The notes below the pieces were generated by a model. It made no database searches. It saw only the letters and a program-made list of their open reading frames with translations, and had not been told where the DNA came from. A program made the translations under genes and the position numbers. Shown here piece after piece: positions 13,080 through 46,591 of a DNA stretch of 50,014 bases; positions within the stretch are counted from its first letter, which is position 1; every line of letters begins with the position of its first letter. The stretch is taken from positions 1 to 50,014 of the IMG/VR virus record IMGVR_UViG_3300031673_000079. One strand, written 5' to 3'. Source of the stretch: a virus.

Positions 13080-13163
13080 GCCCACATGGCGAAATTGGCA
13101 GACGCAAGGGACTTAAAATCCTTTAGTTGTAAAACTGTGAGGGTTCAATTCCCTCTGTGGGCA
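13080..13163 (+). tRNA. tRNA-Leu (anticodon UAA)
   Basis: Acceptor GCCCACA (13080-13086) pairs with TGTGGGC (13156-13162). D-arm contains TTGGCAGA, anticodon loop CTTAAAA with TAA at 13114-13116, long variable arm as in class II leucine tRNAs, T-arm AGGG-TTCAATT-CCCT. No CCA is encoded. It is the only full tRNA in the genome and decodes UUA/UUG, codons favoured in the AT-rich genes. Confidence 0.93.
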
Positions 13164-18424: not shown

Positions 18425-18696
18425 GAATAGATAGAATAGAATTATCATTTAACCAGCGGGTCACCCCAGTTTGTGAGTTTATGATGTACGATATGGATCA
18501 TAATATAACACACTATACGCGCTGTAATGAATACGCTAAAATATACTGTAGTGAAAGAGGAATGTCGATAATACAAGGAGGCGCAATAGAAAAAAGAGTA
18601 AAGAAAATAATACGTCTTTGTGAGGAACATTACAAAGAATTGAAGAAGCTCGTTCCAGATTTAGAGGAGGTGAATAGTGAACGACACATTTCTTGA
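18421..18696 (+). CDS. Unknown protein (91 residues)
   Basis: Coupled by ATGA to the SNF2 gene. Contains Cys residues near 20, 38 and 46 and a basic helical C-terminus. An in-frame ATG two codons earlier (18415) is an alternative start. The end overlaps the next gene by 20 bases. No family recognised. Confidence 0.55.
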   Translation: MRIDRIELSFNQRVTPVCEFMMYDMDHNITHYTRCNEYAKIYCSERGMSIIQGGAIEKRVKKIIRLCEEHYKELKKLVPDLEEVNSERHIS

Positions 18697-19225
18697 TGAT
18701 TTTATAGATGATAGCAAATCTGCTATCGAAGAAGTAATGGCGTATATCAATGTTGTTGAAGCCCTAGATCATGATATACAACTTCTTGAAGATCAGTTAA
18801 AAGAAAAGAAAGAAAGGTATGATGAACTAGTTAAAGAGACTCTTCCCACGCTTCTGGCAGAGAACGGACTTGATAGTATGACGTTGGCTAATGGAAAGAA
18901 GCTAACTATAAAAGAAGATATTTTTGTATCTCTTCCTAAAAACGACATAGGAAGAAAGGCGGTTCTTACATGGCTTGCTAAGAACGGGGGAGTAGATTTG
19001 ATTAAAGAAGATATGATTGTAGAGGCTCCTCCTGAAGAACTTAAAACGTTCTTATCTATGCGGGGGATATCTTACGCCCAGGATACCTCCGTTAACGGTA
19101 ATAGTCTTAAAGCATGGTTTAGGCGTAAATTAGGAATGACCAAAGGATCACAACAAGAAATTGATCTTAATATGGTTCCTAAAGAAGCTAATCTCTATAT
19201 AGAAAGGAGGGCAGAAATAAAATGA
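18677..19225 (+). CDS. DUF7173-like phage protein
   Basis: 182 residues, GTG start with GAGGAGG upstream. A coiled-coil (about 25-60), then LLAENGLDSMTLANGKKLTI, a DIFVSLPK strand, VLTWLAKNGG, and a C-terminal LKAWFRRKL helix. This order resembles a family found in podo- and siphovirus replication modules (name from memory). Role unknown, perhaps a replication accessory factor. Confidence 0.65.
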   Translation: MNDTFLDDFIDDSKSAIEEVMAYINVVEALDHDIQLLEDQLKEKKERYDELVKETLPTLLAENGLDSMTLANGKKLTIKEDIFVSLPKNDIGRKAVLTWLAKNGGVDLIKEDMIVEAPPEELKTFLSMRGISYAQDTSVNGNSLKAWFRRKLGMTKGSQQEIDLNMVPKEANLYIERRAEIK

Positions 19226-19446
19226 CAAAGAAGGATGATGGAGTAAGACTAGAGAAGTATTTCGAGAATGATGATTTTGACGATCCGATTGACGAAGATG
19301 AAGATGAAGATGAAGATGAAGATGAAGATGAAGATGAAGACGAAGACGAAGACGAAGACGAAGACGAAGACGAAGACGAAGACGAAGACGAAGACGAAGA
19401 CGAAGACGAAGACGAAGATGAATCTTATGAGGAGGAGGAAAAATGA
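19222..19446 (+). CDS. Acidic Asp-Glu repeat protein
   Basis: 74 residues: a normal 24-residue head (MTKKDDGVRLEKYF), then about 21 Asp-Glu pairs, then ESYEEEEK. The run is coded by GAAGAT then GAAGAC hexamers, a pure microsatellite. Between two coupled genes (ATGA on both sides), so it is translated. Polyanionic tails can mimic DNA and occupy binding proteins; the neighbouring product is ssDNA-binding-like. Length may be an assembly estimate. Confidence 0.65.
   Translation: MTKKDDGVRLEKYFENDDFDDPIDEDEDEDEDEDEDEDEDEDEDEDEDEDEDEDEDEDEDEDEDEDESYEEEEK
19291..19425. repeat. GAAGAT/GAAGAC hexanucleotide repeat
   Basis: About 22 hexamers, the first third GAAGAT and the rest GAAGAC, in frame within the 19222 gene. 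The sharp switch of third base marks two expansion events. Confidence 0.95.
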
Positions 19447-20195
19447 GCGATTTTCTTGATGATTTTTCGGGTCAAGGTTATGAGGATTTTGGATCGAATA
19501 GCTATCAAGTTCCTTTTTTAAAAATAGCACAATCATTGAGCCCCGAAGTTAAGAAACAAAAACCCGAATATATAGAGGGGCTAGAACCGGGACAATTTTT
19601 CAACACACTTACGAAAAAGAATTATGGTTCGACTATTAGACTCATTCCTCTTAGACAGAAGGGAATTTGGCTTGAATTTGAGCCTAACCAAGGACCTTTC
19701 AGAGGAGCCCACGCCCCTGGTTCTATTCCTACTGCTGGTGATACTTATGAAGATGGATTGAAGACGCTAAAAGGAAATAATCTTATCGACACTATGGTGT
19801 TTTATTGTCTTATTGAAGGAGAACTTGAAACGGGGCCGATTATTTTTTCACTTTATAAGTCTGGTATTAAACATGCTAAAACATGGAATAGTCTTATTAT
19901 GACTTCTAAAACTACTAGCGGTAAGCAGGCTCCCTATTTTGGTTCCGTATGGGAAGTTACCACACAATTTAACCAGAACGATCAAGGAGATTGGTTTCAG
20001 ATAGGAGCAGGTAAATCTAGTAATATTAAGCGTATACGGAGTATTACTAAAGATGAACTAGACTTATATGTTCTTCCCGCGCGTAATATTTTGAAAGATA
20101 TTGATCGTCGAGCGGACTATGCACAAATAACAGGGGGAGAGACAAGAATAGCGCTTACCGAGTCCACTGAATCTATAGCTAAGTCAGACTTCTAG
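19443..20195 (+). CDS. ssDNA-binding-like replication protein
   Basis: 250 residues beginning MSDFLDDFSGQGYEDFG. The VPFLKIAQSLSPE...YIEGLEPGQFFN opening and the later IPLRQKGIWLEFEP strand recur in many phages directly before primase/polymerase genes, where such proteins are annotated as single-stranded DNA binding or of unknown function. An OB-like fold is inferred. Coupled by ATGA to the acidic protein. Confidence 0.6.
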   Translation: MSDFLDDFSGQGYEDFGSNSYQVPFLKIAQSLSPEVKKQKPEYIEGLEPGQFFNTLTKKNYGSTIRLIPLRQKGIWLEFEPNQGPFRGAHAPGSIPTAGDTYEDGLKTLKGNNLIDTMVFYCLIEGELETGPIIFSLYKSGIKHAKTWNSLIMTSKTTSGKQAPYFGSVWEVTTQFNQNDQGDWFQIGAGKSSNIKRIRSITKDELDLYVLPARNILKDIDRRADYAQITGGETRIALTESTESIAKSDF

Positions 20196-23325: not shown

Positions 23326-23793
23326 ATGGACTACAAAAATGAAGATATTACGGATATAATAATAGAAACTATAGAGATAAAAGACAAAGAAGAAAACATA
23401 TTAGGATATGCTTATAAATATAATAGCGGAATGCTGATGATTGCAATGAATAAAGGGAACGTTATATTAGCAGAAGAAGCACCAAAAATAAGTGAATTTA
23501 AAGATACTAAGGATAAGCCACGACTAGGGTATGTCTATCGGTCCTTTCTTAATGCTGTTACGGCAGTAAGAGAATTTGGAGCGAAAAAATATCAGAATCC
23601 TAATACGTGGCGACAAGTTCCTATGGATGACTATTATCATGCCCTCATGCGGCACGTCTCTGCGATGATGGATGCAAGGTTCAACCCCGAGAGCCGCGAG
23701 ACGCTAATCGATGCGGAGAGTGGCATACGTCACGCGGCACACGCCGCATGTAATTTGATGTACATCATTGAAGAGGAGGACAGTATATCATGA
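23326..23793 (+). CDS. DUF5664-type nucleotide (dATP/dGTP) diphosphohydrolase-like protein
   Basis: 155 residues. The C-terminal part KPRLGYVYRSF..AVREFGAKKY..NTWRQVP...YYHALMRH...DAESGIRHAAHAACN matches a MazG-like all-helical family annotated as dATP/dGTP diphosphohydrolase. It would change nucleotide pools during replication. The N-terminal 55 residues are beta-rich and unassigned. TAGGAGG ribosome site. Bases about 23640-23760 are much richer in GC than the rest of the gene, as if patched by recombination. Confidence 0.75.
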   Translation: MDYKNEDITDIIIETIEIKDKEENILGYAYKYNSGMLMIAMNKGNVILAEEAPKISEFKDTKDKPRLGYVYRSFLNAVTAVREFGAKKYQNPNTWRQVPMDDYYHALMRHVSAMMDARFNPESRETLIDAESGIRHAAHAACNLMYIIEEEDSIS

Positions 23794-24050
23794 TAGGAGA
23801 AGGAGTTACAGGAGGATCGAATGGCGGCCCTAGAAGGGCGCTTTTAGGCAAAAAGGCTTCGTCACAGAAACATACGGCAAGGAAAATTGCGCCGCTCTAC
23901 GAGCTGGGAACAGTGAGCAAAACCTTGAATTTACAGGACTACCCACGTATATGCGAAGGATGCGGAAGAGAGTTTGTAGCACACCGAAAAGATAAAAGAT
24001 TTTGTTGTCAGTCATGCTACCAATCTTATTATTATAGGAAACATAAATGA
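23790..24050 (+). CDS. Small zinc-finger protein
   Basis: 86 residues; the C-terminal half has CEGCGREF...RFCCQSCYQSYYYRKHK (Cys55, 58, 72 or 73, 76), a treble-clef zinc ribbon. The N-terminus is Gly/Ala/Lys-rich. ATGA overlap with the upstream gene and 4-base overlap with the polymerase. Probably binds nucleic acid; role unknown. Confidence 0.65.
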   Translation: MIGEGVTGGSNGGPRRALLGKKASSQKHTARKIAPLYELGTVSKTLNLQDYPRICEGCGREFVAHRKDKRFCCQSCYQSYYYRKHK

Positions 24051-25867
24051 ACTACCCCGATCTATCTTCTGCTAAGATGATAGCTTTTGATACTGAGACG
24101 TATGATCCTTATCTTATAGAAGAAGGTCCTGGATGTTTTAGGAGGGATGGATATGTTATGGGTGTATCTCTTGCAACTGACGATGGTTTTGCTGAGTACT
24201 ATAGCTTACACCATTCTGATACTCCTAGTGATGAACGATCAGCGAATCTCAAGTATATTAAAACTATTCTTGGTAATAGTATATCTAAGCTTGGTGTTAA
24301 TTGTGGATATGATTTTGGTTGGCTACACGACTACTTGGGAGTTGAGATCAATGGAAAGCTTAACGATATTCAAATCGCTGAACCTCTTTTGGACGAATAT
24401 CAACAGCATTATTCACTCGATTTTCAGAGTCATAAGTACCTCGGAGTAGGTAAAGAGAATGATGAGTTAAAAGAATGGTGCGAAAAGCGTAATCTAAAAG
24501 GCGATCCACGTAAATATATATGGCAAATGCCCTATGAACTTGTACGTAAATATGCTATCGGAGATGTTAAACAACCATTAGTTATCTTTGAAAAGCAGAA
24601 AGTATTGCTTGAAGAACAAAATTTGATGCGTGTATATGATATGGAGACCGATCTTCTTCGTCCTATATTCGCCATGAGAAGCAAAGGAATTCGCGTAGAT
24701 CGTAACAAGATTCGCGCTACAGTAGAGAGACTTGAGAAAGATATAATAACTTGGGAACGAGAATTATTCGATCAATATGGTGAATTTAATGTTAATAGTT
24801 CACAGCAAATAGCAGAAGTTCTTGCTAAACTACATATCAAATATCCTCTCACTAATAAAGGAAGCCCAAATATAGATCATAAATTCCTTGAGTTTAATTG
24901 TGGGGATAGTATAGGAAATAAAATTCTTAAACTTCGTTCAGCTAAAAAGGTTATTAGCACCTTTCTCATGGGAGCTTTTACAGATTACAATGTTCAAGAT
25001 CGTATCCATCCTAACTTTGTCACAATGAAGCGAGATGAAGGAGGCACGGTAACAGGTAGATTATCCTGTCAGAATCCTAATCTCCAACAAGTTCCTTCTA
25101 AAGATGAGACGTATGGGCCAGAATGTCGTTCAGTATTTATCCCTGAAGAGAACTGCTGGTATGGTAAGATAGATTACTCACAAATAGAATACCGCATCAT
25201 TGCCCACTATGCTCTAGGGGCAGGAAGCGATAAAATACGTAAGGAGTTCAATGATAATCCTTACACGGACTATCATTACTTAGTACAACAATGGATACAA
25301 GAAGTTACAGGTGTGTCTTTGGAGCGAAAAAAGGTAAAAAATCTTAATTTTGGTACTGCTTATTTCATGGGTATTGCGTCAATGTCTAAGAAGTTTGGTT
25401 GGTCTATGGAACAAAGTGAAGAACTTAATAAAGTGTATTTTGATACATTTACATTCTTAAAACCAACCCGTACCGCAGTAGTAAACATAGCGAAGATGCG
25501 CGGCTATGTGCATACAATATTAGGCCGTCGCGCTCGAATTACGCACGCTATGAGAGAAAATAGAAAAGAATATATAGTATGGAATCATCTTGTACAAGGG
25601 ACTGCGGCGGATATAATGAAAAAAGCCATTGTTGATGCTTGGAAGAGCGGCGTATTAGACGTGCTTACCGCTCATATTACGGTGCATGACGAATTAGGCG
25701 TATCAGTACCAAAGACAAAGGAGGGTATAGAGGCTTATAGAGAACTAAAAAATACGATGGAGCATGTTGTAAATCTTAAAATACCTATTATTGCTGAAGC
25801 TGAAATCGGGTCCTCGTGGGGAGAGACTAAGAAATTTGATTTTGATGCACTAAAGGAGACTATATGA
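24047..25867 (+). CDS. DNA polymerase, family A, with 3'-5' exonuclease
   Basis: 606 residues; the replicative polymerase. Exonuclease: FDTETYD (about 14-20, D-x-E), NCGYDFGWL, and YAIGDVKQP. Polymerase: TGRLSCQNPNLQQVP, motif A KIDYSQIEYR, motif B RKKVKNLNFGTAYF, motif C VHDELG. No 5'-3' exonuclease domain, as in T7-like enzymes. The O-helix has Phe where T7 has Tyr, so discrimination against dideoxynucleotides is expected. Overlaps the zinc-finger gene at ATGA. Confidence 0.97.
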   Translation: MNYPDLSSAKMIAFDTETYDPYLIEEGPGCFRRDGYVMGVSLATDDGFAEYYSLHHSDTPSDERSANLKYIKTILGNSISKLGVNCGYDFGWLHDYLGVEINGKLNDIQIAEPLLDEYQQHYSLDFQSHKYLGVGKENDELKEWCEKRNLKGDPRKYIWQMPYELVRKYAIGDVKQPLVIFEKQKVLLEEQNLMRVYDMETDLLRPIFAMRSKGIRVDRNKIRATVERLEKDIITWERELFDQYGEFNVNSSQQIAEVLAKLHIKYPLTNKGSPNIDHKFLEFNCGDSIGNKILKLRSAKKVISTFLMGAFTDYNVQDRIHPNFVTMKRDEGGTVTGRLSCQNPNLQQVPSKDETYGPECRSVFIPEENCWYGKIDYSQIEYRIIAHYALGAGSDKIRKEFNDNPYTDYHYLVQQWIQEVTGVSLERKKVKNLNFGTAYFMGIASMSKKFGWSMEQSEELNKVYFDTFTFLKPTRTAVVNIAKMRGYVHTILGRRARITHAMRENRKEYIVWNHLVQGTAADIMKKAIVDAWKSGVLDVLTAHITVHDELGVSVPKTKEGIEAYRELKNTMEHVVNLKIPIIAEAEIGSSWGETKKFDFDALKETI

Positions 25868-26079
25868 AGCCAAATATTACTATTAACAGGCAAAAACATA
25901 CTTTCAGCTATCAATCAATGCTTAACTATTTGAAGGCGCATGGTTATGTCAAACAAGAAGAAGATATGATCCCCATAGAATTTATCAAAACGGAATCGGT
26001 TAAGATACGGGAAAAACGAAGCGATCTTCCATCAGGTATACGAAGACTTATCGTAGACATGGACGTGGAGGTAAAGTAA
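25864..26079 (+). CDS. Unknown basic protein (71 residues)
   Basis: ATGA overlap with the polymerase stop, so co-translated. Lys/Arg-rich with a helical SYQSMLNYLKAHGY segment; C-terminus LIVDMDVEVK. Possibly a polymerase accessory protein. No family recognised. Confidence 0.5.
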   Translation: MKPNITINRQKHTFSYQSMLNYLKAHGYVKQEEDMIPIEFIKTESVKIREKRSDLPSGIRRLIVDMDVEVK

Positions 26080-26080
26080 G

Positions 26081-26662
26081 ATGAAAATATTAGCTACCGC
26101 TTTCTCCGAAGTGAAAATAATACTATATGATAAAATATATGATGATCGAGGATCATTTTCGGAATTTATGAAAGAAAGTGATGGCTTTTCTATTAGACAA
26201 GTTAATGAGAGTTTTTCTAAAAAACGAACACTTCGTGGTTTACACATGCAGTATGGTCCTCCTTTATCAAAAATGATACGGGTAGTCGCAGGCTCTTGTA
26301 TGTTTATTGTACTCGATATTCGCCCTAAATCTTCTACTCAAGGGAAAGCTATCCTAGTAAAAAAAGCTAGCGTAATGGATGAGAAGCATACAAGTTGGCT
26401 TAAAATACCTTTTGGATTTGCTAGTGGATTTTTGGCAATGGAAGATTCAATTGTAGAATATCTTTTTGACGAGGAGTATAGCGAGTATACCAATATATCG
26501 GTAAACTATAATGATCCTAACATTGATTGGTCTTTAACAACTGCACCATATAAAAATACTTACCAGTTCTTTATAGATACCAATAAATTGATTATATCTG
26601 AAAAAGATAGGGAAGCTCTTAGTTTACTTGATTTAATAGGAAAAAAGGAGCTGTTTGAATGA
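26081..26662 (+). CDS. RmlC-like nucleotide-sugar epimerase (cupin)
   Basis: 193 residues; 3,5- or 3-epimerase of 4-keto-6-deoxy sugars. Pattern: DDRGSFSEFM, VNESFSKKRTLRGLHMQ (His in RGLH, about 55), VVAGSCMFIVLDIR, then PFGFASGFLAMED and VEYLFDEEY (Tyr). The usual GFAHGF His is Ser here, so specificity or activity may differ. First of four sugar genes, coupled to the next by ATGA. Possible products decorate the virion, DNA or host surface. Confidence 0.85.
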   Translation: MKILATAFSEVKIILYDKIYDDRGSFSEFMKESDGFSIRQVNESFSKKRTLRGLHMQYGPPLSKMIRVVAGSCMFIVLDIRPKSSTQGKAILVKKASVMDEKHTSWLKIPFGFASGFLAMEDSIVEYLFDEEYSEYTNISVNYNDPNIDWSLTTAPYKNTYQFFIDTNKLIISEKDREALSLLDLIGKKELFE

Positions 26663-27894
26663 AAACTATTCCTGTTTCTGGTATGGTTATTACTGACAAA
26701 GACAAGGAGACTATGATATATGCAATATCATCTGGAGAAATATCTTATGGCTCGTATAATAGATTGGCAAGCGACAGATTAGCAACTTATGATAAACTAA
26801 ATTTTTGCCATCTTGTTAATTCAGGTAGTTCCGCAAACTTACTCGCTATGATGGCTTTCACATCTAAGAATATGCCTAAAGAGTACCGCGTAAAAAAAGG
26901 GGACGAGATAATTACTGTAGCTGCTTCGTTTCCTACTACTGTAGCACCTATTATTCAAGCGGGGTGTGTTCCTGTATTTGTAGATATAGATGATAGTTAC
27001 AATATTGATGTAGGGCAAATATATAAGGCAATAACACCAAAAACTAAAGGTATATTTATAGCTCATACTCTCGGTATCCCTTTTGATGTGGTAGAGATAG
27101 AAAATATATGCCGCAAATTAGGATTATTCTTAATAGCCGATAACTGTGACTCTTTAGGAACAACATGCAATAATAAGCCTATAAGTGTATGGGGAGATGT
27201 AATAACTCACTCCTTTTATCCCGCGCATCACATAACGAGCGGTGAAGGCGGTGCTGTGCTAACCAATAATATTAGGATAGCCAAAATAATACAATCTATG
27301 CGTGATTGGGGAAGAGACTGCCAATGTGAACCAGGACACGATAACTACTGTGGGCATAGGTTCGAGGGACAATACGGAGAACTCCCAGCTAACTATGATC
27401 ATAAATATGTCTATAGTGAACTGGGGTATAATTTAAAAATGACTAATATCCAAGCGGCTCTTTTATATTCACAGTTAGATAATATAGTTGAATGGACAGA
27501 AATACGAAAAAGTAATTTTGCTATTCTTGATGAGTATTTACATGAATATTCTTTTCCTTACATACTAAAAGATGGCATTTATACAGACTACTCACCTAGT
27601 TATAAAGGAATTCCTTCGTGGTTTGGCTATCCTATTTGTCTTCCTACTAGAATGAACAGATCAAGAGTGATAGAAGAGCTCAACAAACAAGGAGTACAGA
27701 CGCGCCTCTTATTTGCGGGGAACATACTGAAACAGCCTATGTGGCGCTATAAGCATAGAACTATAGGCGATCTTCCCATGACAAATAGAATTATGGAACA
27801 AATGTTTTGGATAGGATGCTGGCATGGGCTTAGTGAGGAAGATATGCTGTACTCTCGGGACGTTGTTTTTAACGCAATAAAGGAGGAGGAATGA
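26659..27894 (+). CDS. PMP-dependent [2Fe-2S] sugar 3-dehydrase (E1/RfbH-like)
   Basis: 411 residues, DegT/AHBA fold but in the branch of CDP-4-keto-6-deoxyglucose-3-dehydrase. The PLP lysine is replaced by His190 in SFYPAHHIT, as in E1 and ColD. Cys163, Cys221, Cys223, Cys231 give C-x57-C-x1-C-x7-C, the E1 iron-sulfur pattern as I recall it. It would remove the 3-OH of a 4-keto-6-deoxy sugar toward 3,6-dideoxyhexoses. The reductase partner (E3) is not encoded, so host electrons are needed. Substrate nucleotide not known. Confidence 0.88.
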   Translation: MKTIPVSGMVITDKDKETMIYAISSGEISYGSYNRLASDRLATYDKLNFCHLVNSGSSANLLAMMAFTSKNMPKEYRVKKGDEIITVAASFPTTVAPIIQAGCVPVFVDIDDSYNIDVGQIYKAITPKTKGIFIAHTLGIPFDVVEIENICRKLGLFLIADNCDSLGTTCNNKPISVWGDVITHSFYPAHHITSGEGGAVLTNNIRIAKIIQSMRDWGRDCQCEPGHDNYCGHRFEGQYGELPANYDHKYVYSELGYNLKMTNIQAALLYSQLDNIVEWTEIRKSNFAILDEYLHEYSFPYILKDGIYTDYSPSYKGIPSWFGYPICLPTRMNRSRVIEELNKQGVQTRLLFAGNILKQPMWRYKHRTIGDLPMTNRIMEQMFWIGCWHGLSEEDMLYSRDVVFNAIKEEE

Positions 27895-28607
27895 AAATAC
27901 TCATACTCGGAGGCTCTGGTGTATTAGGACAAGCTATAAGAAATAGGCTAACAGAATTGCTCATCGTACATATAGCGCCTTCGCATGAAGAGCTAGACGT
28001 TACAAGTGACAATATTTATATAAGTAGCACATACGATGCTATACTGTATTTAGCCGGAATGAAGAACCAAGAATATATAGAAAGTCATGGTCAAGAAGCG
28101 ATGTGGCCTAATATATTCGGACTTATAAATGTTGTGTCTAATATGCATGAGAATCAAAAATTGGTGTATATTTCTACGGGATACGTATATAAAGATGATA
28201 AGAGCTATCACAAAGAAACAGATGGACTATACCCATGCAATAGATACGCATGGTCTAAATTAGGAGGAGAATGCGTAGTTAATATGCTTCCTGAAGAACG
28301 ACATTTAATAATTCGATGCGAGTTTTCTAAGAAACCATGGCACAGAGAAACAGCGTACAACAATCAATTCACTTCACGAGAAGAAGTTACTACCACGGCT
28401 AAGAAAATAGTGGACCTAATTTCAAAGAAAGCTTATGGTACATATAATGTGGGAGGAAAGAGACACTCTATTTGGGAATACGCAAACAGTATTAGTGACA
28501 AAGAAATAGAAGAAGTGCAATTGTACCATGATGAAAATCCTTTATTACCAAGAGATACATCACTAAATACTGATAAGTATACTACGTTTATGAAGGAACA
28601 TAAATGA
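27891..28607 (+). CDS. RmlD-like nucleotide-sugar 4-reductase/epimerase
   Basis: 238 residues of the short-chain extended family. GGSGVLGQ (8-15) binds NAD(P)H, STGYVY (about 95-100) supplies Ser/Thr, and YAWSKLGGE (about 117-125) is the YxxxK catalytic pair. Short for RmlD (about 290). Likely reduces the 4-keto group made by the neighbours. ATGA coupling on both sides. Confidence 0.85.
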   Translation: MKILILGGSGVLGQAIRNRLTELLIVHIAPSHEELDVTSDNIYISSTYDAILYLAGMKNQEYIESHGQEAMWPNIFGLINVVSNMHENQKLVYISTGYVYKDDKSYHKETDGLYPCNRYAWSKLGGECVVNMLPEERHLIIRCEFSKKPWHRETAYNNQFTSREEVTTTAKKIVDLISKKAYGTYNVGGKRHSIWEYANSISDKEIEEVQLYHDENPLLPRDTSLNTDKYTTFMKEHK

Positions 28608-29287
28608 TTGATTGTTATATCCCTTTGCGAACGGACCCTGGTTTACTGCAACAGGCTATTGCATCAATGTATGATCAGGTAGACAACTTTATAGTAATAA
28701 ATAATACACAACAAGACCTAACTTCATTGTTTAAGTATGTACCAAAGGTAGAGTTTCTAAATCCGTTCGACCCCATGTGTTTTGAGCAATCCATAAATAC
28801 GGCAGTTAAGCACTCCTATGGTTATAAGAAAAATCATGACTACTTATTCTGGTGTCATAATGATATTATTGTACAAGCAGGGGCCGTAGAAGCATTATTC
28901 AAAAAATATGAAGAAGTTAAGCATACAAAATGGGGTGTGATCTACGGTAACTATGACACGTTCTGCCTTATCAATCCTAACTTCTTTATAAAGGAGAATA
29001 TATGGGGAGAAGTTAACTTATTTCCTAACTATTTTGGGGATAATCATCGTTATCGTCTTATGGATTTACGTGGTTATTCACGATTGGACGCGGAAGGAGT
29101 AAAAGATTTAGTGTTTCATATCGGTAGTCAGACTATTATGCGCCATCCTTATTTCAAAACTATCAATAACTTGACATTCGCACTAGAGCAACAATTATAT
29201 ATAAATATTTGGGGAGGGTTATCCCCAAATGAGTTAAACGCCGATCCTACTTGCGGCGGTCTTTACCCTATTACGGAGGAAAAATGA
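28604..29287 (+). CDS. Glycosyltransferase, GT2-like (GT-A)
   Basis: 227 residues. Opens with MIDCYIPLRTDPG and a VINNTQQD strand; HNDIIVQAGA (about 86-95) fits the DxD-like site. Possibly transfers the deoxy sugar to a lipid, protein or DNA. Lacks membrane helices. The stop overlaps the next start. Confidence 0.65.
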   Translation: MIDCYIPLRTDPGLLQQAIASMYDQVDNFIVINNTQQDLTSLFKYVPKVEFLNPFDPMCFEQSINTAVKHSYGYKKNHDYLFWCHNDIIVQAGAVEALFKKYEEVKHTKWGVIYGNYDTFCLINPNFFIKENIWGEVNLFPNYFGDNHRYRLMDLRGYSRLDAEGVKDLVFHIGSQTIMRHPYFKTINNLTFALEQQLYINIWGGLSPNELNADPTCGGLYPITEEK

Positions 29288-30654
29288 GCGATACTTTTGC
29301 CGATCCTGCTGAGAAATATAACTATGATGAAGAGACCGGTACCTATATGAGAAAGAAGCCTGAGCCTATTAAGAAATTAAATGTTTTATACTGGGGTGAT
29401 ACTCCTACTTGCTCTACAGGATTTGGTCAAGTGGCTCGCAACGTTCTTCAATCGCTTAATGCTACAGGAAATTATGACTTTAACATTCTTGGCATTAACC
29501 ATGGGGGGGATTACTATGACTTCAATAAGTTCCCTTATAAGATTGACCCTGCGACATGCCTTCTAAGTAACGATACCGACTTACACGGGAGACCTAAACT
29601 CCTGCGAAAATTGAGAACAGAACGAGTAGACATCCTATTTATCATACAGGATACCTTCTTAATGATGAGCGTCATGGATGATATCATCAAAATTCGCAAG
29701 GAACTTCCTCTAGATAGGCAGTTCGTTATTATTTATTACTTTCCTATCGATGGAAACCCACAGCCTGATTGGATTACTAAAGGGGTGCTTCCTGTAGATT
29801 TTCCTGTTACGTATACTCAGTATGCTAAACAAGTTTGTTATAAAACAAGTAATCAGATGTTCCCTCTTGATGTTATATATCATGGAGTTAACAAACAAGA
29901 GTTTTTCCCACTCAATGATGAGACTATTAAGGAGTTTAGAAAAAAGGTATTTGGTGTTCATGCGGATAAATTTCTTGTACTGAATGTAAATAGAAACCAA
30001 CAAAGAAAAGACTTGCATCGTTCTTTAGCCGCGTATTCCATTTTCCATAAGAAGCACGCCGATTCATTTTATTTTATTAACTGTCAGATGGAGGATATTG
30101 GAGGTAGACTCGATATAATAGGTAGTCAGTACGGGCTTAAAATGCCGGACCCAAAGAATAATATTGAAGGAGACTGGACATGTCCTGCTCCCGGAACATT
30201 TAGCGCAGCGCAAGGTTATTCTATAGATGTTCTCAACTCTTTATATAATGCGGCTGATCTTGTTATCTCTTCTACCCTTGGTGAAGGATGGGGTCTATCC
30301 TGTACAGAAGCTATGCAATGTAAGACCCCTGTACTCTTTCCAAGAAATACGTCACTCATCGAAATGATAGGACCTAGTGAAGAAAGAGGCTTTTTATGTA
30401 AGTCAGGAGAAGATAGAGACCACATGATTTGTTTAGGAGGAATAGATAACAATGTCATTCGTCCTGTAATAAATGTTCAAGATATGGCAGATAAAATAAG
30501 CTATATTTATGAGCATCCTGAAGAGGCTAAGAATAAAGCCAATGAGGCGTTTGCATGGGTGGAGTCATGGTACGATATTTCTCCTAAATGGTTCGACGTG
30601 TTCAAGCGTGCAGAAAGCAAATTAAAGGAGATGCGCGGTGCAGTACAAGAGTGA
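29284..30654 (+). CDS. Glycosyltransferase family 4-like (GT-B)
   Basis: 456 residues. LNVLYWGDTPTCSTGFGQV near the N-terminus, VLNVNRNQQRKDL (about 237-249) in the middle, and the donor-binding ADLVISSTLGEGWGLSCTEAM with E-x7-E style glutamates (about 325-345). ATG at 29284 has GGAGG upstream and forms ATGA with the previous stop; an earlier in-frame start lacks support. Cytosolic. Acceptor unknown. Confidence 0.88.
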   Translation: MSDTFADPAEKYNYDEETGTYMRKKPEPIKKLNVLYWGDTPTCSTGFGQVARNVLQSLNATGNYDFNILGINHGGDYYDFNKFPYKIDPATCLLSNDTDLHGRPKLLRKLRTERVDILFIIQDTFLMMSVMDDIIKIRKELPLDRQFVIIYYFPIDGNPQPDWITKGVLPVDFPVTYTQYAKQVCYKTSNQMFPLDVIYHGVNKQEFFPLNDETIKEFRKKVFGVHADKFLVLNVNRNQQRKDLHRSLAAYSIFHKKHADSFYFINCQMEDIGGRLDIIGSQYGLKMPDPKNNIEGDWTCPAPGTFSAAQGYSIDVLNSLYNAADLVISSTLGEGWGLSCTEAMQCKTPVLFPRNTSLIEMIGPSEERGFLCKSGEDRDHMICLGGIDNNVIRPVINVQDMADKISYIYEHPEEAKNKANEAFAWVESWYDISPKWFDVFKRAESKLKEMRGAVQE

Positions 30655-31031: not shown

Positions 31032-31058
31032 GGCCCCCTTAACGGGGGCCAAATTTTT
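31032..31058. terminator. Bidirectional terminator between converging units
   Basis: GGCCCCC-TTAAC-GGGGGCC (31032-31050) has A5 on its left and T5 on its right. Leftward, five T follow the stem at once, an ideal terminator; rightward, T5 comes after AAA. A second hairpin AGAACGGG/CCCGTTCT (31063-31070, 31079-31086) follows. Confidence 0.92.
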
Positions 31059-31922: not shown

Positions 31923-32459
31923 TCATTTCATTTCAAGATGAACAGGAATAAGGTCTCCCGGTTTAACCGTATACTGATCAAAAAATGAACCAAGATTGAC
32001 TAGCGCGTAATCAGGAATAACAATACATCCCGCAGACCATGCTACTGAAGTATCATGTCCTTGAGGGGCAGGCTTCAGATGTTGCCAATCATGCCACTCC
32101 CAACGGCTAGAGTTATTAGAAGTAATGGACTCGTCATTTATGTAATCTCCATTAAACGTGTAAGCTTTTACGGAACCGTGTATTCTACCATAATGAGAAG
32201 TAGAATAAAGTTGATCATAAAAAGCACGAAGAAAAAAATCTCCACAAGCTATGGTATCATAAAAATGAACACCTGGATCAAGAGACTCCATGTTCGCCAC
32301 AGTCTGCGCTTTGCATTGTAGTAGAGTTTCATTATCGTTAAGAAGAGTGAGAACATCGAGAGAATTATTGACACTTTGATTCCCCCAATCTCCGAGTATC
32401 GACATATCTTTACGGTATACAAGAGATAAAGGATCACGAACAAGAGTAATAGATAGCAT
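31923..32459 (-). CDS. Putative endolysin, L,D-transpeptidase-like (YkuD-like)
   Basis: 178 residues. C-terminal GRIHGSVKAY (His) and VAWSAGCIVIPD (Cys in S-x-G-C) resemble the H-G...S-x-G-C site of YkuD and related cysteine peptidase-like proteins acting on peptidoglycan. No signal peptide, so release needs a holin, which is the next gene. ATG at 32459 has AGGAGG four bases upstream. Function is inferred from motif and neighbours. Confidence 0.6.
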   Translation of the reverse strand: MLSITLVRDPLSLVYRKDMSILGDWGNQSVNNSLDVLTLLNDNETLLQCKAQTVANMESLDPGVHFYDTIACGDFFLRAFYDQLYSTSHYGRIHGSVKAYTFNGDYINDESITSNNSSRWEWHDWQHLKPAPQGHDTSVAWSAGCIVIPDYALVNLGSFFDQYTVKPGDLIPVHLEMK

Positions 32460-32467
32460 GGTACCTC

Positions 32468-32764
32468 CTAATGAATAAGGATGGAAAAGCCGATAGCCAA
32501 AATAGGCCCGATGAACGTCATTGCAATAAGCATCCAATCACGTTGAGATATTCTACGTCTGTCATTTTTTTTCTCGTCTTCTTCTATAAAGTCTTCATGC
32601 TGTGTACGAGTCCATAAATTAGGTAACGCTATTTTAATTTGCACCACATCCTCTTCAAGACATGAAAACTTTGTTATAAGGCCAGAACCATTGGTTCCTT
32701 CGAGGATCGTCCATATACGAACGAGTAGATCATGATCGGTGGTAGGCGGTTCTCGAATATCCAT
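32468..32764 (-). CDS. Small coiled-coil membrane protein (XhlA/holin-like)
   Basis: 98 residues; a soluble N-terminal helical part and a C-terminal membrane helix (about 76-97, MLIAMTFIGPILAIGFSILI) after a basic RRR stretch. Similar layout to hemolysin XhlA-type lysis accessory proteins. Nine-base gap to the hydrolase candidate. Confidence 0.55.
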   Translation of the reverse strand: MDIREPPTTDHDLLVRIWTILEGTNGSGLITKFSCLEEDVVQIKIALPNLWTRTQHEDFIEEDEKKNDRRRISQRDWMLIAMTFIGPILAIGFSILIH

Positions 32765-32766
32765 AA

Positions 32767-32913
32767 TTACTTTCCTTTCTTTTCGTCTTTTTCAGCTTCG
32801 CGCTTTTCGGAATAAGCAATAGCAATAGCTTGCTTAATGGGTTTTTCCGCACCCCGTTCTTTTGCGATATTCTCACTAAAAGATTTCTTTGAAGTTCCTT
32901 TGATTAACGGCAT
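32767..32913 (-). CDS. DUF6496-like small basic protein
   Basis: 48 residues, MPLIKGTSKKSFSENIAKE then KPIKQAIAIAYSEKR. The MPLxKGxSKKxxSxNIxxE...KQAxAIAL pattern is widespread among phages (family number from memory); function unknown. Complementary start at 32913 has GGAG upstream on the minus strand. Confidence 0.7.
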   Translation of the reverse strand: MPLIKGTSKKSFSENIAKERGAEKPIKQAIAIAYSEKREAEKDEKKGK

Positions 32914-32923
32914 ACCACACTCC

Positions 32924-33964
32924 TTAATATTCTATTATAACACAGCCTGACCCACCAGCACCCCCACCAATTCCTCCCGCTCCACCCCCTCCTCCTCCTC
33001 CTATATTACCTGTACTCCCACCGCCTAAACCACCAGCACCCCCACCAGCTCCTCCCATACCCACAGCCCCATATACTCCTGCCCCTCCCGAGGCTCCTGC
33101 CCCTCCCGGGGCTCCTGCCCCTCCTAATACATTAGTACCACCACTATACAATGCCCCGTAGCCTCCTTGTGCCGATATACTACCGAATGTAGTAGTCCCC
33201 CCATTAGTTCCCGATCCACCACCCACTCCTCCTGCTCCACCTGCTCCAATGGAATAAGATACTATCTGTCCAGGCGTAACAGAAATATTTTTAGCAGTTA
33301 CCAAACTTATACTTGTTCCTCCTCCTCCACCACCACAGTAGATAACTGTGCTACCACTAGTTAAACCACTTCCTCCCCCACCTCCTCCCCCTACTACTGT
33401 AACTCTAAGCTGATACACACTATTAGGAACTGTCCAATTACCCGTTCCACTAAGGAGTGTCACTACTTGTCCCTGAAAAATATTAACTCCACCACTTATA
33501 GCGATTGTCCAATTAGAGCCTAACGCGGCATTAAGCGCTGTAGTCCAATTAGAGCCTAACGCGGCATTAAGCGCTGTAGTCCAATTAGAGCCTAACGCGG
33601 CATTAAGCGCTGTAGTCCAATTAGAGCCTAACGCGGCATTAAGCGCTGTAGTCCAGTTAGCTCCATACGCGGTTTTAAGATAGTAAAGATTAGCTAACGC
33701 CGTAGCAACTTGATTCGTCGCGCTTCCCGAAGGAGTAAGCCCGCCTGAAGTAACTATAGTATCAAGTTCCGCAATGACATTTGTCAAACCACTCTGAACT
33801 ATTGTAACATTGTCAGTCAGAGCGTACTCCATATAGTTATACCATTCACATGGAAGTTGCTCTTGGGGCTGATAGCCGATAGTTAAGTGTGCAGAATCGG
33901 GTTGAACTTTATTACCCGCCGTACAGAATACAGGTAAATTAGTATACGTAACTGAACCAGTCAT
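32924..33964 (-). CDS. Tail fibre / receptor-binding protein, glycine-rich
   Basis: 346 residues. A structured N-terminus (1-100), four 12-residue repeats of ALGSNWTTALNA (about 103-150), then WTVPNSVYQLRVTVVGGGGGG and a 150-residue glycine-rich domain ending SGCVIIEY, the pattern of polyglycine receptor-binding tips such as T-even gp38-like adhesins. Repeat number sets the spacing of the tip. Placement after baseplate genes fits. Confidence 0.75.
   Translation of the reverse strand: MTGSVTYTNLPVFCTAGNKVQPDSAHLTIGYQPQEQLPCEWYNYMEYALTDNVTIVQSGLTNVIAELDTIVTSGGLTPSGSATNQVATALANLYYLKTAYGANWTTALNAALGSNWTTALNAALGSNWTTALNAALGSNWTTALNAALGSNWTIAISGGVNIFQGQVVTLLSGTGNWTVPNSVYQLRVTVVGGGGGGGSGLTSGSTVIYCGGGGGGTSISLVTAKNISVTPGQIVSYSIGAGGAGGVGGGSGTNGGTTTFGSISAQGGYGALYSGGTNVLGGAGAPGGAGASGGAGVYGAVGMGGAGGGAGGLGGGSTGNIGGGGGGGAGGIGGGAGGSGCVIIEY
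33512..33655. repeat. Four tandem 36-bp repeats in the tail fibre gene
   Basis: Units at 33512, 33548, 33584 and 33620, identical or nearly so, each coding for 12 residues. A second, unrelated 36-bp x4 array is at 4673. Confidence 0.95.
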
Positions 33965-33973
33965 AATATCTCC

Positions 33974-34573
33974 TTAACCATTATAAAGTGCTACTTGCGG
34001 TTCAGTAGCAAATATAGCGAATAACTCGTTTCCTAAATATAGCTGTAGCGCTGATATGTAAGGATTAAAATCTACCTTTATATCTCCAACATTCCCACCA
34101 GAACCTATAATACTTATCGTATGTGGCCCTAATACAGAGCATACTTCGTCTACTGTCGCTAATGTAATACCTGCATTTTTGATTTGCGACGCTATAGGAA
34201 GAAGCTGTTCAAAAACTTGGTACCCTACATTAGAGCTGGCATAGTAAGTAGTGAGTAATCCACTTAATGTAGTACCAGAGATAACACTACCAAAACCTGA
34301 GTAGGTCACAAAATAGGGAGCACCGCTATATGTACAAAAAGTGAATAAGTTAACTCCTCCTACTAATGTCTGAGGAACGACGGGCCACAAGTAACCTACA
34401 AGTCTACCTATAGTTTGCAGAATTCCTGATATTCCTAGAGAATTTGTAATACTCAAATCATACATATACGAAATTTCACCCGAGGCGAGCGTTATTTCGT
34501 TCTGCACCGCGTTTATAAGGGCCTGAGCATAAGGTCCTGATAGAGGACTCGCTAAATAACTATTTTCTGCCAT
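33974..34573 (-). CDS. Baseplate protein, DUF2612-like
   Basis: 199 residues. The opening (ASPLSGPYAQALINAVQ) and the segment SLGISGILQTIGRLVGYLWPVV resemble DUF2612/P2 gpI-type proteins that join the baseplate wedge to fibres. Directly follows baseplate J by one base, the usual neighbour. Confidence 0.6.
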   Translation of the reverse strand: MAENSYLASPLSGPYAQALINAVQNEITLASGEISYMYDLSITNSLGISGILQTIGRLVGYLWPVVPQTLVGGVNLFTFCTYSGAPYFVTYSGFGSVISGTTLSGLLTTYYASSNVGYQVFEQLLPIASQIKNAGITLATVDEVCSVLGPHTISIIGSGGNVGDIKVDFNPYISALQLYLGNELFAIFATEPQVALYNG

Positions 34574-34574
34574 A

Positions 34575-35744
34575 TTATTGTAACACTATTGTCGTATACG
34601 CTTGTGTGAATACAGCGTATGAGTTTACAGGTATCGGAACAGATACCCCATAATTTGAACCGCTCATGGATAATAGAACACCGTTAATACTAGCAAATAC
34701 GTATGACTGCAACTGGGTCATCATAAAATCTGAGGTAAGAAGCTGACCCATCGTGACACTAATATTACTTAGAGCTGTATACAGTGCAACAGCATAAGAA
34801 CTATTAGCTATAGAATTAGCCTGAATAAATACTTGCACATACACATTCACGGGAGAGGCATAGTCATAGTTTATAGTGTACGTCTGATTCGATAGAGTAA
34901 CTATTGTTTGCGCCTGACCGCCGTATGTAGGAGCGTTCATAATACTCCAGTATGTAGAAGCTATAGCAGACGAGGAACCAACTACAACCATATATGCAGT
35001 GCGAGCAGGAAGATTTATAGCCCCTGAAATTCCTACTAAAGATGACGCCGTTAGAAGCGGGTTAAAATAGGCGTTAGCCCCTTGTATACCGGGGAGGCCA
35101 CGTAAAGCTAAAATGAGACCGTTAAGATTATTACTAATCGTGTTCCCTGCCAATATTCTAGCGCGAGCTTGTGCCGCAGTTTCTATAACACTACCAACGG
35201 AACAAGGCGCATTGTTTACAACTGATCCGAAGTTTGCAAGACTCTCCAATAAACCGCTTACCTGTCCTGAAACTACAATAATGGGACCTGTAGAATCCGC
35301 AACAGTAAACATCTGAGCGCTAGTATTAGCAGGAACGGTAATCGCAGATTGAGTGATAAATCTATTTGTAAGACCGCTAACTGCAACATGCGAACCAGAA
35401 GGAATAATAAGTGAACCCGTAGATGCGGCGGTAAATACCACATACATAGATGAATAAGAAGCTGGAATTAGAGACGTACCGGCAATAGGAAGAAGAGAAT
35501 ATATCTGATTATCATCACAATTGGCTATATCAAAACTGTTCTTAGCAGCTGATAAAGGTTGATCTACAAGTTCCGCTATTTCCTGCCCAGCGGCAAGACA
35601 GTAGAACCATAAAATATTTCCTGTAGTAGCGATTACAGGCGGCATGCCTTGTGACTGCAATTGAGTATTCATATTAGATAGAATATTAGTTGCATGTTGC
35701 TGAGTAGAAAGAACTTGCCATGTTGATCCGTTTAAGGTATACAT
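34575..35744 (-). CDS. Baseplate J-like protein
   Basis: 389 residues; wedge component of contractile tails. Features: N-terminal helical part, IIPSGSHVAVSGLTNRFITQSAITVPANT (about 116-143) typical of gpJ, and a later ETAAQARARILAG helix and GLPGIQGANAYFNP segment. Its ATG follows the gp25-like gene with a one-base overlap. Confidence 0.85.
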   Translation of the reverse strand: MYTLNGSTWQVLSTQQHATNILSNMNTQLQSQGMPPVIATTGNILWFYCLAAGQEIAELVDQPLSAAKNSFDIANCDDNQIYSLLPIAGTSLIPASYSSMYVVFTAASTGSLIIPSGSHVAVSGLTNRFITQSAITVPANTSAQMFTVADSTGPIIVVSGQVSGLLESLANFGSVVNNAPCSVGSVIETAAQARARILAGNTISNNLNGLILALRGLPGIQGANAYFNPLLTASSLVGISGAINLPARTAYMVVVGSSSAIASTYWSIMNAPTYGGQAQTIVTLSNQTYTINYDYASPVNVYVQVFIQANSIANSSYAVALYTALSNISVTMGQLLTSDFMMTQLQSYVFASINGVLLSMSGSNYGVSVPIPVNSYAVFTQAYTTIVLQ

Positions 35745-36085
35745 TATCCGGTACTCCCTAAGGCTACTGTTACTGTTAATCGTCCTGAAGCCGTAACATA
35801 ATTAGGAACATAACCATTAGCGTTAGCGTTTCTTAATGCCTGTCTAATATTAGCGTCTAATTGTCCGAATCCAATTTGGCTAGTAAGAAATCCTGTCCAA
35901 TTAACACCTTGGTCAGGTAGTTGTGGTATTGTGCCGGTTTGCATGAACACCGCGATGTTAGCGTTCTGCTGATTGCCTAACGTTCCTGATATTACAGGCA
36001 CCTGTCCTGATACTACAACAAAGTCCCATGTGGGATAAGCTCCTCCGCTAGTGGTAGTAGAAGCCATTAATGCATCTGTAGCCAT
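35744..36085 (-). CDS. Baseplate wedge protein, gp25-like
   Basis: 113 residues with LPDQGVNWTGFLTSQIGFGQLDANIRQAL (about 55-83) and a C-terminal strand GRLTVTVALGS. This is the pattern of gp25/gpW lysozyme-like wedge proteins. AAGGAACGTGAT precedes ATG. One-base overlap with baseplate J. Confidence 0.75.
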   Translation of the reverse strand: MATDALMASTTTSGGAYPTWDFVVVSGQVPVISGTLGNQQNANIAVFMQTGTIPQLPDQGVNWTGFLTSQIGFGQLDANIRQALRNANANGYVPNYVTASGRLTVTVALGSTG

Positions 36086-36086
36086 A

Positions 36087-36593
36087 TCACGTTCCTTGTA
36101 AGGTAGCTAGCTGAACTCGTAAAGATTGTTTCTCGGAAATAATCGTCTGTTTAGAAGCATTAGGAGTAAATCCAGTTATAGATGGTAGCATATCCTCAAC
36201 TATACGAGGAACCTGTAAATCTAATGAAACTAGTTGTGACTTTATACTACTTATTTGTTCAGCAACATTATTGGCATTAACCTCAGCTTGAGTCAGTCCT
36301 GTAATAGTAACGGGATTAGTAACGGTCTCATTAGTATAAGTAGAACTCATATCTACCATACCTAAATTATACCAAGAGGAATTATTCTGTGTGTATTTTC
36401 TAAGAACTGTAACATTATAATCCGTACCATCAAAAGTAATGGATTGAATATAGTCATCAGTAATTGTAGGAAATTGAACGGAAGTAGAATCAATTTGTTT
36501 ATATACCCCATTTATTTTTAGAGTAGTAGCATTGACTAGGACTATCTCTGTATCCTCAGTCACATTGTTAATTCCAATATATTTTAATTTCAT
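36087..36593 (-). CDS. Unknown virion-associated protein (168 residues)
   Basis: Beta-rich first half (1-100) and helical end (about 110-168). It sits among baseplate and fibre genes; could be a fibre chaperone or baseplate component. GGGGGTAATTT ahead of ATG. No family recognised. Confidence 0.55.
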   Translation of the reverse strand: MKLKYIGINNVTEDTEIVLVNATTLKINGVYKQIDSTSVQFPTITDDYIQSITFDGTDYNVTVLRKYTQNNSSWYNLGMVDMSSTYTNETVTNPVTITGLTQAEVNANNVAEQISSIKSQLVSLDLQVPRIVEDMLPSITGFTPNASKQTIISEKQSLRVQLATLQGT

Positions 36594-36685
36594 AAATTAC
36601 CCCCATCCACTTCGAGCGTGTTGTCGTCGATCACCGCGAGCCGCGTGTCGGCCTGGGCGAATTGCGGGCTATATCTGAGGTACAT
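36590..36685 (-). CDS. Very small GC-rich protein (31 residues)
   Basis: MYLRYSPQFAQADTRLAV... between the fibre gene and the gene above, with GGAAGGTGG upstream and an ATGA overlap downstream. The 96 bases have far higher GC than the surrounding late genes. It resembles a fragment of a longer phage tail protein left by recombination. Confidence 0.4.
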   Translation of the reverse strand: MYLRYSPQFAQADTRLAVIDDNTLEVDGGNL

Positions 36686-37471
36686 CTAGCGCCACCTTCC
36701 AGAAGCTCTCCAATTTATTAGTCCCGAAGTATGGGGCGTTGCATTCGCATCATATACCCATGCGTAAATAGAACCAACAAGCCTAGAAGCTGGATTGGAG
36801 CTAACCATGTTTGCTGAATTAGCTATTTCACCATTTCCGTTTATTTCATAGGTTGTGTCTATAAATGGTACAGGAAATGTAATCAGTGTTGGATACGCCG
36901 TAATTGTACCCAACTTATATTCTTCCATCGTCCCATCGGAGAACTGGATAAAGCTCCCGTTGGAGTTGGAGCCGGATATCTGCCAATCATCAGAAGTGAC
37001 ATTCCCACTACTATCTACATAAATATTAAACATTAAATTGTTGCTAACACCAGAAGTAGAATATAAAGTATTACCTGTAGCTGAAATAGGAACCCAGACA
37101 CTATCTCCGCTTCCTGTAGTTATCGTTAATGTATATGGGCCACCTGAACCTGCTACAAGACTGGCCGAGGGAATATATACTTTATAGCTCTTAACTCCAT
37201 TTTGAGTTGACGCATTAAAATACAAAGTTATCGTTCTATTACTAGAAGTCGTTCCGCTAATAGCTATAATTTCATTAGTAATATCCCCAATAGTACCAGT
37301 ATAGTTAGAAGAACTTATATTTATATTAAGCGCACCCACATTATTACTAGCTAATATAGCCCCCATTCCAGATTCATACGTAGTCATAGCAACTATCCCC
37401 GCCGCAGGTACAGACATACCTGAAGGAACCATCGACCAATCAAGGCCGGATAAGGCAGTTTGATAGCTCAT
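36686..37471 (-). CDS. Tail fibre / appendage protein
   Basis: 261 residues, beta- and Ser/Thr/Gly-rich with the C-terminal INWRASGRWR seen at fibre tips and an FSDGTMEEYKLG segment (about 177-188) like an intermolecular trimer knob. Follows the spike gene by a four-base overlap. Likely binds host surface. Confidence 0.65.
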   Translation of the reverse strand: MSYQTALSGLDWSMVPSGMSVPAAGIVAMTTYESGMGAILASNNVGALNINISSSNYTGTIGDITNEIIAISGTTSSNRTITLYFNASTQNGVKSYKVYIPSASLVAGSGGPYTLTITTGSGDSVWVPISATGNTLYSTSGVSNNLMFNIYVDSSGNVTSDDWQISGSNSNGSFIQFSDGTMEEYKLGTITAYPTLITFPVPFIDTTYEINGNGEIANSANMVSSNPASRLVGSIYAWVYDANATPHTSGLINWRASGRWR

Positions 37472-38031
37472 GGCGATAGTAGTCCTTGTAGCTGTGCTAT
37501 AGTAGAAGAAGAAATAAAATGATAGGGAGGAGGCCCTTGCGTAGTTAAAGATTCAAGAATAGTAGCTAAAGATTGCGCAGCGTTCTTTATTTGAAATAGC
37601 CCATTAACTATATTGATCTGCGCTATAGATTGTGCATTATTTGTAGCTAAAGGAATAGCTTTTAGAGTATTCAAACTATAGTGCGCAAACACTGAAGCAG
37701 TGTGCGGTAATGCGTCAGCAGTACTTTCCACTAAATCTTTTAACCCAACTAATAGTACGGGATCACCAGTCTGTAACTCAAAATTCATCGAAAACATAGC
37801 GCCCGATAAGAAAAGAACTTCAACACTTTTCGTTCTTGTAGGAAAATTTTCAGGTACGAACCCCTGCGGTGGATAACGAGGAGTACTGCATATAGAATGA
37901 AGAACATCTACTGTTCCGTCTCCGTTATTAACTTCTACTGTACCGTAATCAATAATGAACTTAGAAGCTATGAGACTATTTATCACGTCTCTATCGGACG
38001 TGCCAAAATTATCTACAATATAGTCTACCAT
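37468..38031 (-). CDS. Baseplate spike protein (gp138/gpV-like)
   Basis: 187 residues; GTVEVNNGDGTVDV (about 30-43) is the signature OB-fold start of the gp138/gpV spike family. The rest is a short beta-stalk, GDPVLLVGLKDL (about 103-114). Pierces the outer membrane. ATG at 38031 overlaps the hub gene end with GAGG upstream. Confidence 0.78.
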   Translation of the reverse strand: MVDYIVDNFGTSDRDVINSLIASKFIIDYGTVEVNNGDGTVDVLHSICSTPRYPPQGFVPENFPTRTKSVEVLFLSGAMFSMNFELQTGDPVLLVGLKDLVESTADALPHTASVFAHYSLNTLKAIPLATNNAQSIAQINIVNGLFQIKNAAQSLATILESLTTQGPPPYHFISSSTIAQLQGLLSP

Positions 38032-39047: not shown

Positions 39048-39358
39048 TACGATCTCCTATCTATAAGATACATAGACACATTGTTAATGTCGTTAATACC
39101 GGGTTCAGCTATAGGAGAAGCAAATAACAAACAATAATCAGGGTAGCCACTCCATGCTATATTATTGTTGTATACCGCCGCTTCTCTTACCAGCTGCAAG
39201 TCGCTATTCGTATTAGAAGGAGGAGTAGCATAGCATGTCCAATGAGAATTAATGAATATAAAAGAGAAGTTCCATCCTCCTCCTGCTATAGAAGTACTAA
39301 AATTAAATGAGTACGTATTTGTAGCTATACTAGGCATGTTTATTTGATACGTTGTCAT
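39047..39358 (-). CDS. Baseplate plug-like protein
   Basis: 103 residues, beta-rich, with a WNFSFIFINSHWTCY strand pair and a final VSMYLIDR. The size and position between hub and Dit-like genes match baseplate plug proteins such as those described for cyanophage Pam3. Role by analogy only. Confidence 0.5.
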   Translation of the reverse strand: MTTYQINMPSIATNTYSFNFSTSIAGGGWNFSFIFINSHWTCYATPPSNTNSDLQLVREAAVYNNNIAWSGYPDYCLLFASPIAEPGINDINNVSMYLIDRRS

Positions 39359-39370
39359 TTAGAGTGTGCC

Positions 39371-40231: not shown

Positions 40232-40245
40232 TATTTATTCCCCAT

Positions 40246-42172: not shown

Positions 42173-42173
42173 C

Positions 42174-42692: not shown

Positions 42693-42702
42693 AATTTACT
42701 CC

Positions 42703-43911: not shown

Positions 43912-43926
43912 TGTTTTCTCCTATAT

Positions 43927-46176: not shown

Positions 46177-46194
46177 TATGTTACTGTTTCCTTT

Positions 46195-46224: not shown

Positions 46225-46230
46225 ATTAAA

Positions 46231-46572: not shown

Positions 46573-46591
46573 TATTTGCCTCCCTAATGTC

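Follow-up and report, generated by a model that had tools for sequence, protein, structure and literature searches.

Results

An RfbH-type 3-dehydrase gene lies in a compact phage sugar operon

We analyzed a 50,014-nt stretch of DNA (the window), IMG/VR record IMGVR_UViG_3300031673_000079; all coordinates are positions in this stretch, with the + strand as given. The record comes from a virus collection and encodes terminase, portal, major head protein, and tail and baseplate genes, together with replication genes for a family A DNA polymerase, helicases, and a primase. The genes around the 3-dehydrase run in the order polymerase, 71-aa protein, RmlC-like protein, E1 (the 3-dehydrase), RmlD-like SDR, GT-A-like protein, and GT4, each overlapping or nearly abutting the next. 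Within the five-gene sugar run there is a 4-base overlap at all four internal junctions if GT4 is taken to begin with the ATG at 29284. Virion genes on the opposite strand converge on this unit at a hairpin. The features are as follows.

24047-25867, + strand: family A DNA polymerase, directly upstream (PF00476, 228 bits)
25864-26079, + strand: 71-aa small protein between the polymerase and the sugar genes; 4-base overlap with the polymerase
26081-26662, + strand: RmlC-like cupin, predicted C5 epimerase, 193 aa; 4-base overlap with E1 (PF00908, 102 bits)
26659-27894, + strand: E1/RfbH-type PMP- and [2Fe-2S]-dependent NDP-4-keto-6-deoxyglucose 3-dehydrase (NF011936, PDB 3bcx, E1 clade)
27145-27147, + strand: Cys163 codon, predicted [2Fe-2S] ligand 1 (motif and alignment)
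27226-27228, + strand: His190 codon, in place of the catalytic Lys of DegT aminotransferases (motif and alignment)
27319-27321, + strand: Cys221 codon, predicted [2Fe-2S] ligand 2 (motif and alignment)
27325-27327, + strand: Cys223 codon, predicted [2Fe-2S] ligand 3 (motif and alignment)
27349-27351, + strand: Cys231 codon, predicted [2Fe-2S] ligand 4 (motif and alignment)
27891-28607, + strand: short RmlD-like SDR, predicted C4-keto reductase, 238 aa; 4-base overlap with E1 (PF04321, 61.6 bits)
28604-29287, + strand: GT-A/GT2-like protein, probable glycosyltransferase, 227 aa (weak TIGR01556)
29284-30654, + strand: GT4-family glycosyltransferase, 456 aa from the ATG at 29284 (PF00534, 46.7 bits)
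31032-31050, reported on both strands: bidirectional terminator-like hairpin after the + strand unit, 7 G-C pairs

The RmlC-like protein scored 92 bits against the rmlC model TIGR01221, under the cut-off of 155.75; solved RmlC has the same RGLH motif and conserved Lys at the aligned positions. The RmlD-like SDR scored 65 bits against TIGR01214, under the cut-off of 224; it carries GGSGVLG (GxxGxxG) and YxxxK, is short, and has less than 30% identity to bacterial counterparts. Since both proteins fall below their equivalog cut-offs, the profiles do not fix substrate or stereochemistry. The GT-A-like protein is 29% identical to part of a protein of locus L179 and 22% identical to a protein of L185, both of which lie near GT4 relatives; its structure model (pLDDT 44) was too poor for use.

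The gene product is an E1/RfbH-type 3-dehydrase

The 3-dehydrase gene encodes 411 aa in an intact frame, from the ATG at 26659 to a stop that ends at 27894. Cys163, Cys221, Cys223, and Cys231 form C-x57-C-x1-C-x7-C, the single match in the protein, and His190, 27 residues beyond Cys163, is followed by His191 in SFYPAHHIT. A first-pass annotation of this DNA had described exactly this motif and the distance from Cys163 to His190; coordinates, motif, and PDB alignment agree with it. Its match to CDP-4-keto-6-deoxyglucose-3-dehydrase (E1-type) was likewise borne out by the RfbH profile, the E1 fold, the E1 clade, and the ligands. Against the NCBIfam RfbH model NF011936 the protein scored 500 bits, with a curated cut-off of 423; for comparison, a ColD-like phage protein scored 183 bits and a cyanophage S-B05 protein 360 bits. 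None of the aminotransferase models scanned on the 3-dehydrase attained its own cut-off.

The top PDB sequence matches were the E1 structures 3bcx (wild type, E 4e-107) and 3bb8 (H220K mutant, E 7e-106), and the Lys of the mutant aligns exactly with phage His190. The predicted structure had a pLDDT of 90.9, and Foldseek ranked E1 3bcx first in the PDB (E 1.8e-45, TM 0.87, 43% identity), with aminotransferases and ColD well below. The phage protein thus resembles Yersinia E1 (AscC/DdhC/RfbH, PDB 3bcx) in identity, in fold, in the His for Lys, and in four equally spaced Cys; however, its N-terminal part is ∼30 residues shorter and it lies in a phage operon, in a genome without E3, DdhA, or DdhB.

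We rejected two other identities. A DegT/DnrJ sugar aminotransferase does not fit because the catalytic Lys is absent, with His190 at that position. ColD (GDP-4-keto-6-deoxymannose 3-dehydrase), found in cyanophages S-CAM7 and ACG-2014f, shares the fold and the His for Lys; the ColD-like phage proteins, however, are without Cys221, Cys223, and Cys231, adjoin GMD, and form a separate clade. All four Fe-S Cys are present in our protein, and the genome encodes no 4,6-dehydratase. Profile, fold, phylogeny, and conserved ligands together provide a solid basis for identifying the gene product as an E1/RfbH-type 3-dehydrase.

The catalytic residues are conserved within the E1 clade

The four Cys align with solved E1 and with 80/80 bacterial relatives, and the 57/1/7 spacing with the His at +27 is identical in 77 of these 80. 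A profile search of viral contigs, with patterns that included the His and not the Cys, found at least 589 IMG/VR stretches that encode E1 relatives; when E1, the DNA polymerase, and GT4 were each used as a single query sequence against viral contigs, there were no matches. The four Cys and the His pair were all kept in 77 of the best 80 of these at least 589 viral relatives. Close homologues, on whose cysteines the first-pass annotation had made the assignment hinge, therefore have them in bacteria and viruses alike. The last Cys gap is 11-12 in most other viral relatives versus 7 here.

In an alignment with 165 relatives, the phage protein keeps 62 of the 64 near-invariant columns (those at least 95% conserved), including all four Cys, His190/191, and PMP-region residues. 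In the tree it lies with bacterial RfbH proteins inside the E1 clade, with ColD split off at support 100. The phylogeny that the first-pass annotation had proposed against RfbH and ColD thus places the protein inside E1 and outside ColD, and not among lysine-containing DegT aminotransferases. Its terminal branch is long (1.65), and its precise position is uncertain for this reason. The main phage E1 groups branch apart from it, so this E1 gene looks like a separate acquisition.

The long branch could also be read as the mark of a passenger gene of bacterial origin that has lost its function. We consider this highly improbable, given the near-invariant positions that are kept, the intact frame, a base composition that resembles the neighboring phage genes, and the overlapping operon. 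Instead, sequence comparison suggests that the phage E1 is probably a functional RfbH/AscC/DdhC-type 3-dehydrase with the predicted activity, a judgment that covers both the enzyme and the type of pathway.

The complete genome lacks the upstream enzymes and E3

Bases 1-225 match 49790-50014 with one mismatch, and one gene, for a K/E-rich protein, spans the junction of the genome ends. The record had been classed as being without end repeats despite this 225-base overlap. The genome is therefore complete, at ∼49.8 kb, and absences hold for the whole phage. Elsewhere in the genome, two genes at 18677-20195 match Pfam families named for cyanophage Pam3 gp33 and gp34, and a tRNA-Leu (taa) gene lies at 13080-13163.

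The first-pass annotation had reported that the E3 reductase is absent, and this holds for the complete genome, in which neither a Fer2 (ferredoxin) nor an NAD_binding_1 domain was found anywhere. It had missed that the upstream enzymes are absent too: the complete genome contains no CDP-glucose synthase or sugar nucleotidyltransferase, and no 4,6-dehydratase, CDP-glucose 4,6-dehydratase included, save for a weak hit on the operon's own short SDR. The host must therefore supply NDP-4-keto-6-deoxyglucose and electrons; the host as the source of substrate is our assumption.

The missing E3 is weak evidence of anything special: E3 is a partner in the pathway rather than a trait that defines the dehydrase, and many E1 loci, viral and bacterial, have none nearby. 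An E3 homologue was found within ∼10 kb flanks in 0/80 viral loci (the best 80 of at least 589) and within 8 kb in 21/80 bacterial E1 loci. Nor need its absence be a problem: SpnQ of the spinosyn pathway, described as an Fe-S 3-dehydrase, takes its electrons from general ferredoxin or flavodoxin systems and does without E3 (PMC8987622). It differs from the predicted phage reaction in that its substrate is a dTDP-2,6-dideoxy sugar.

The gene set suggests an ascarylose-type pathway

AscE is RmlC-like. The window holds the corresponding ascarylose-type set, that is, E1, an RmlC-like 5-epimerase, and an SDR 4-reductase, in three adjacent overlapping genes. We infer the activity, step order, sugar, nucleotide, and acceptor as follows. 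NDP-4-keto-6-deoxyglucose from a host 4,6-dehydratase would form a Schiff base with PMP in E1; His190 would abstract a proton, and the C3-OH would leave. The [2Fe-2S] cluster on Cys163/221/223/231 would then pass in two electrons, drawn from a ferredoxin, a flavodoxin, or an E3-like reductase of the host, with NDP-4-keto-3,6-dideoxyglucose as the product. The RmlC-like protein would invert C5 and the RmlD-like protein would then reduce C4, yielding an ascarylose-type NDP-3,6-dideoxy-L-hexose, which the GT4 and GT-A-like proteins would transfer, most likely to an acceptor that the phage itself encodes, for example a virion protein.

Four Bacteroidota loci (L107, L139, L165, and L166), in which RmlC-like and RmlD-like genes adjoin E1 together with ddhA/ddhB-type genes, support a route of 3-dehydration, C5 epimerization, and C4 reduction. 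Epimerization of CDP-4-keto-6-deoxyglucose followed by C4 reduction has been shown biochemically in Campylobacter (PMC12369002). Our best reading of the gene set is thus an ascarylose-type 3,6-dideoxy-L-hexose as the probable product, with its own transferases. A yersiniose-type product was rejected, as YerE and YerF homologues are absent from the 50,014-nt stretch.

The nucleotide may be CDP or dTDP. The phage encodes neither the synthase nor the dehydratase for CDP-glucose, and RmlC-like and RmlD-like partners are enzymes of the dTDP-rhamnose route, so E1 might act on the dTDP series, as SpnQ does, fed by widespread host RmlA/RmlB rather than by CDP-glucose enzymes. We think this unlikely: the protein exceeds the RfbH cut-off and clusters with bacterial E1s, most of which lie beside ddhA/ddhB homologues, and the dehydratase of the RmlC-RmlD-E1 locus L107 is a CDP-glucose 4,6-dehydratase (TIGR02622, 456 bits).

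E1-like genes occur in many other phages

The first-pass annotation had called phage dideoxysugar biosynthesis unusual. This did not stand: E1-like genes are present not only in the at least 589 IMG/VR stretches but also in cyanophages S-B05 and S-H68 (the Cys were checked and are present in S-B05), and a marine survey already counts rfbH/ascC/ddhC among viral auxiliary metabolic genes (PMC10653327). In the literature that we searched on RfbH in phages and on colitose in cyanophages, no experiments on a phage-borne form of the enzyme turned up. The IMG/VR and S-B05/S-H68 genes resemble the present one in their ligands and in having no E3 nearby, but differ in identity (33-45%), in a usually longer last Cys gap, and in neighbors such as ThDP enzymes or RmlB. 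Among the best 80 of the at least 589 viral loci, a ThDP enzyme related to YerE was found in 35 and a ddhA homologue in the fetched flanks of three; RmlC lay directly beside E1 in none. The enzyme therefore belongs to an already known kind of viral gene, and the compact gene set is the less usual part.

Other phage loci suggest other sugars. A 64.6-kb phage contig (L012, 6590-13898) encodes a GDP-mannose dehydratase-like protein, a GDP-fucose synthase-like protein, E1, an acetolactate-synthase-like ThDP enzyme, and then a YerF-like protein, a combination that points to a branched sugar of the yersiniose type. In S-CAM7 (L006, 4064-7122) and ACG-2014f (L007, 4053-7170), GMD, a GDP-fucose-synthase-like gene, and a ColD-like dehydrase lie in a row, which suggests GDP-colitose synthesis; the ACG-2014f dehydrase is annotated as hypothetical or as an aminotransferase. 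The best "phage" match to our protein (47%), OR851175.1 (L005, "Salmonella phage S.Kent 1-2-1"), is an unverified 2.6-kb contig that clusters with Aeromonadaceae E1 at support 100; we set it aside as probable bacterial DNA in a phage entry.

A transferase shared with TJE1-like phages favors the virion as a possible acceptor

The virion module (31923-49890 and 1-4035, - strand), from terminase through tail genes, is collinear with that of Tetrasphaera phage TJE1 over ∼20 genes at 23-51% identity. The GT4 is 44% identical to TJE1 orf14, about the same as for terminase and major head protein. TJE1 differs in its donor genes, which encode a nucleotidyltransferase, a kinase, an epimerase, and a methyltransferase beside its GT4, and it has no E1. 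In another TJE1-like phage (L179, 3550-9326), the same GT4 lies beside cytidylyltransferase-like and methyltransferase-like proteins and a two-part GT2-like protein. Twelve records have a related terminase, several of them short fragments; GT4 was present in six (one a fragment) and E1 in none.

A transferase that is kept while donor genes differ agrees with the acceptor being the phage's own, and in mycobacteriophages it is established that phage glycosyltransferases glycosylate the virion (PMC12363180). The first-pass annotation had offered virion, phage DNA, and host O-antigen as targets; the shared GT4 with differing sugar genes would favor virion decoration over the other two. The GT4-virion link is circumstantial, as the GT4 is absent from one 44.5-kb TJE1-like record and here sits with replication genes, far from the head genes. 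Taken alone, the virion as acceptor is thus plausible, if short of likely.

The operon position could instead point to the host surface, with the dideoxysugar going onto LPS, capsule, or teichoic acid, so that the receptor is changed and other phages are excluded. Bacterial E1 usually serves O-antigen synthesis (PMC8987622), and the operon is grouped with the replication genes and stops short of the converging virion genes, so its expression before virion assembly is plausible. However, we recognized nothing in the sugar operon as a flippase, an acetyltransferase, or a membrane-embedded transferase, and the GT4 family tracks TJE1-like virion modules. To our knowledge, actinobacteria lack LPS, and the host of TJE1 is an actinobacterium. 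We consider a host-surface target rather unlikely, and the O-antigen proposal found no direct support.

A third possibility is that the sugar shields phage DNA against restriction. The sugar genes are directly downstream of the DNA polymerase, and the GT4 also matches PF20706, a GT4 group of conflict systems. Whole-genome searches, however, found neither a thymidylate-synthase-type base-preparing enzyme (PF00303) nor PurZ, which makes DNA a distinctly unlikely target. Hypermodification of the hydroxymethylase type was rejected on the absence of the thymidylate synthase family. Z-DNA, considered on account of a 263-bit match of the polymerase to the DpoZ profile (cut-off 500), was rejected also, as PurZ is absent. 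Near this DpoZ-resembling polymerase, 23326-23793 encodes a dATP/dGTP diphosphohydrolase N-terminal domain (PF18909).

Returning to the virion, we tentatively propose, as a possible though doubtful model, that TJE1-like phages keep a virion-decorating GT4 and swap the donor genes around it, and that the donor here would be a 3,6-dideoxy-L-hexose finished from host intermediates and electrons.

Discussion

If the pathway is active, the phage borrows precursors and electrons from its host and adds only the last enzymes to reach a rare dideoxysugar. A compact set of epimerase, dehydrase, reductase, and transferase in a complete small genome offers a convenient way to find out what surface a phage decorates, and the same gene set lets the exchange of donor-sugar genes around a kept transferase be traced. 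More broadly, viral metabolic-gene surveys that name rfbH/ascC probably detect genes with intact catalytic residues.
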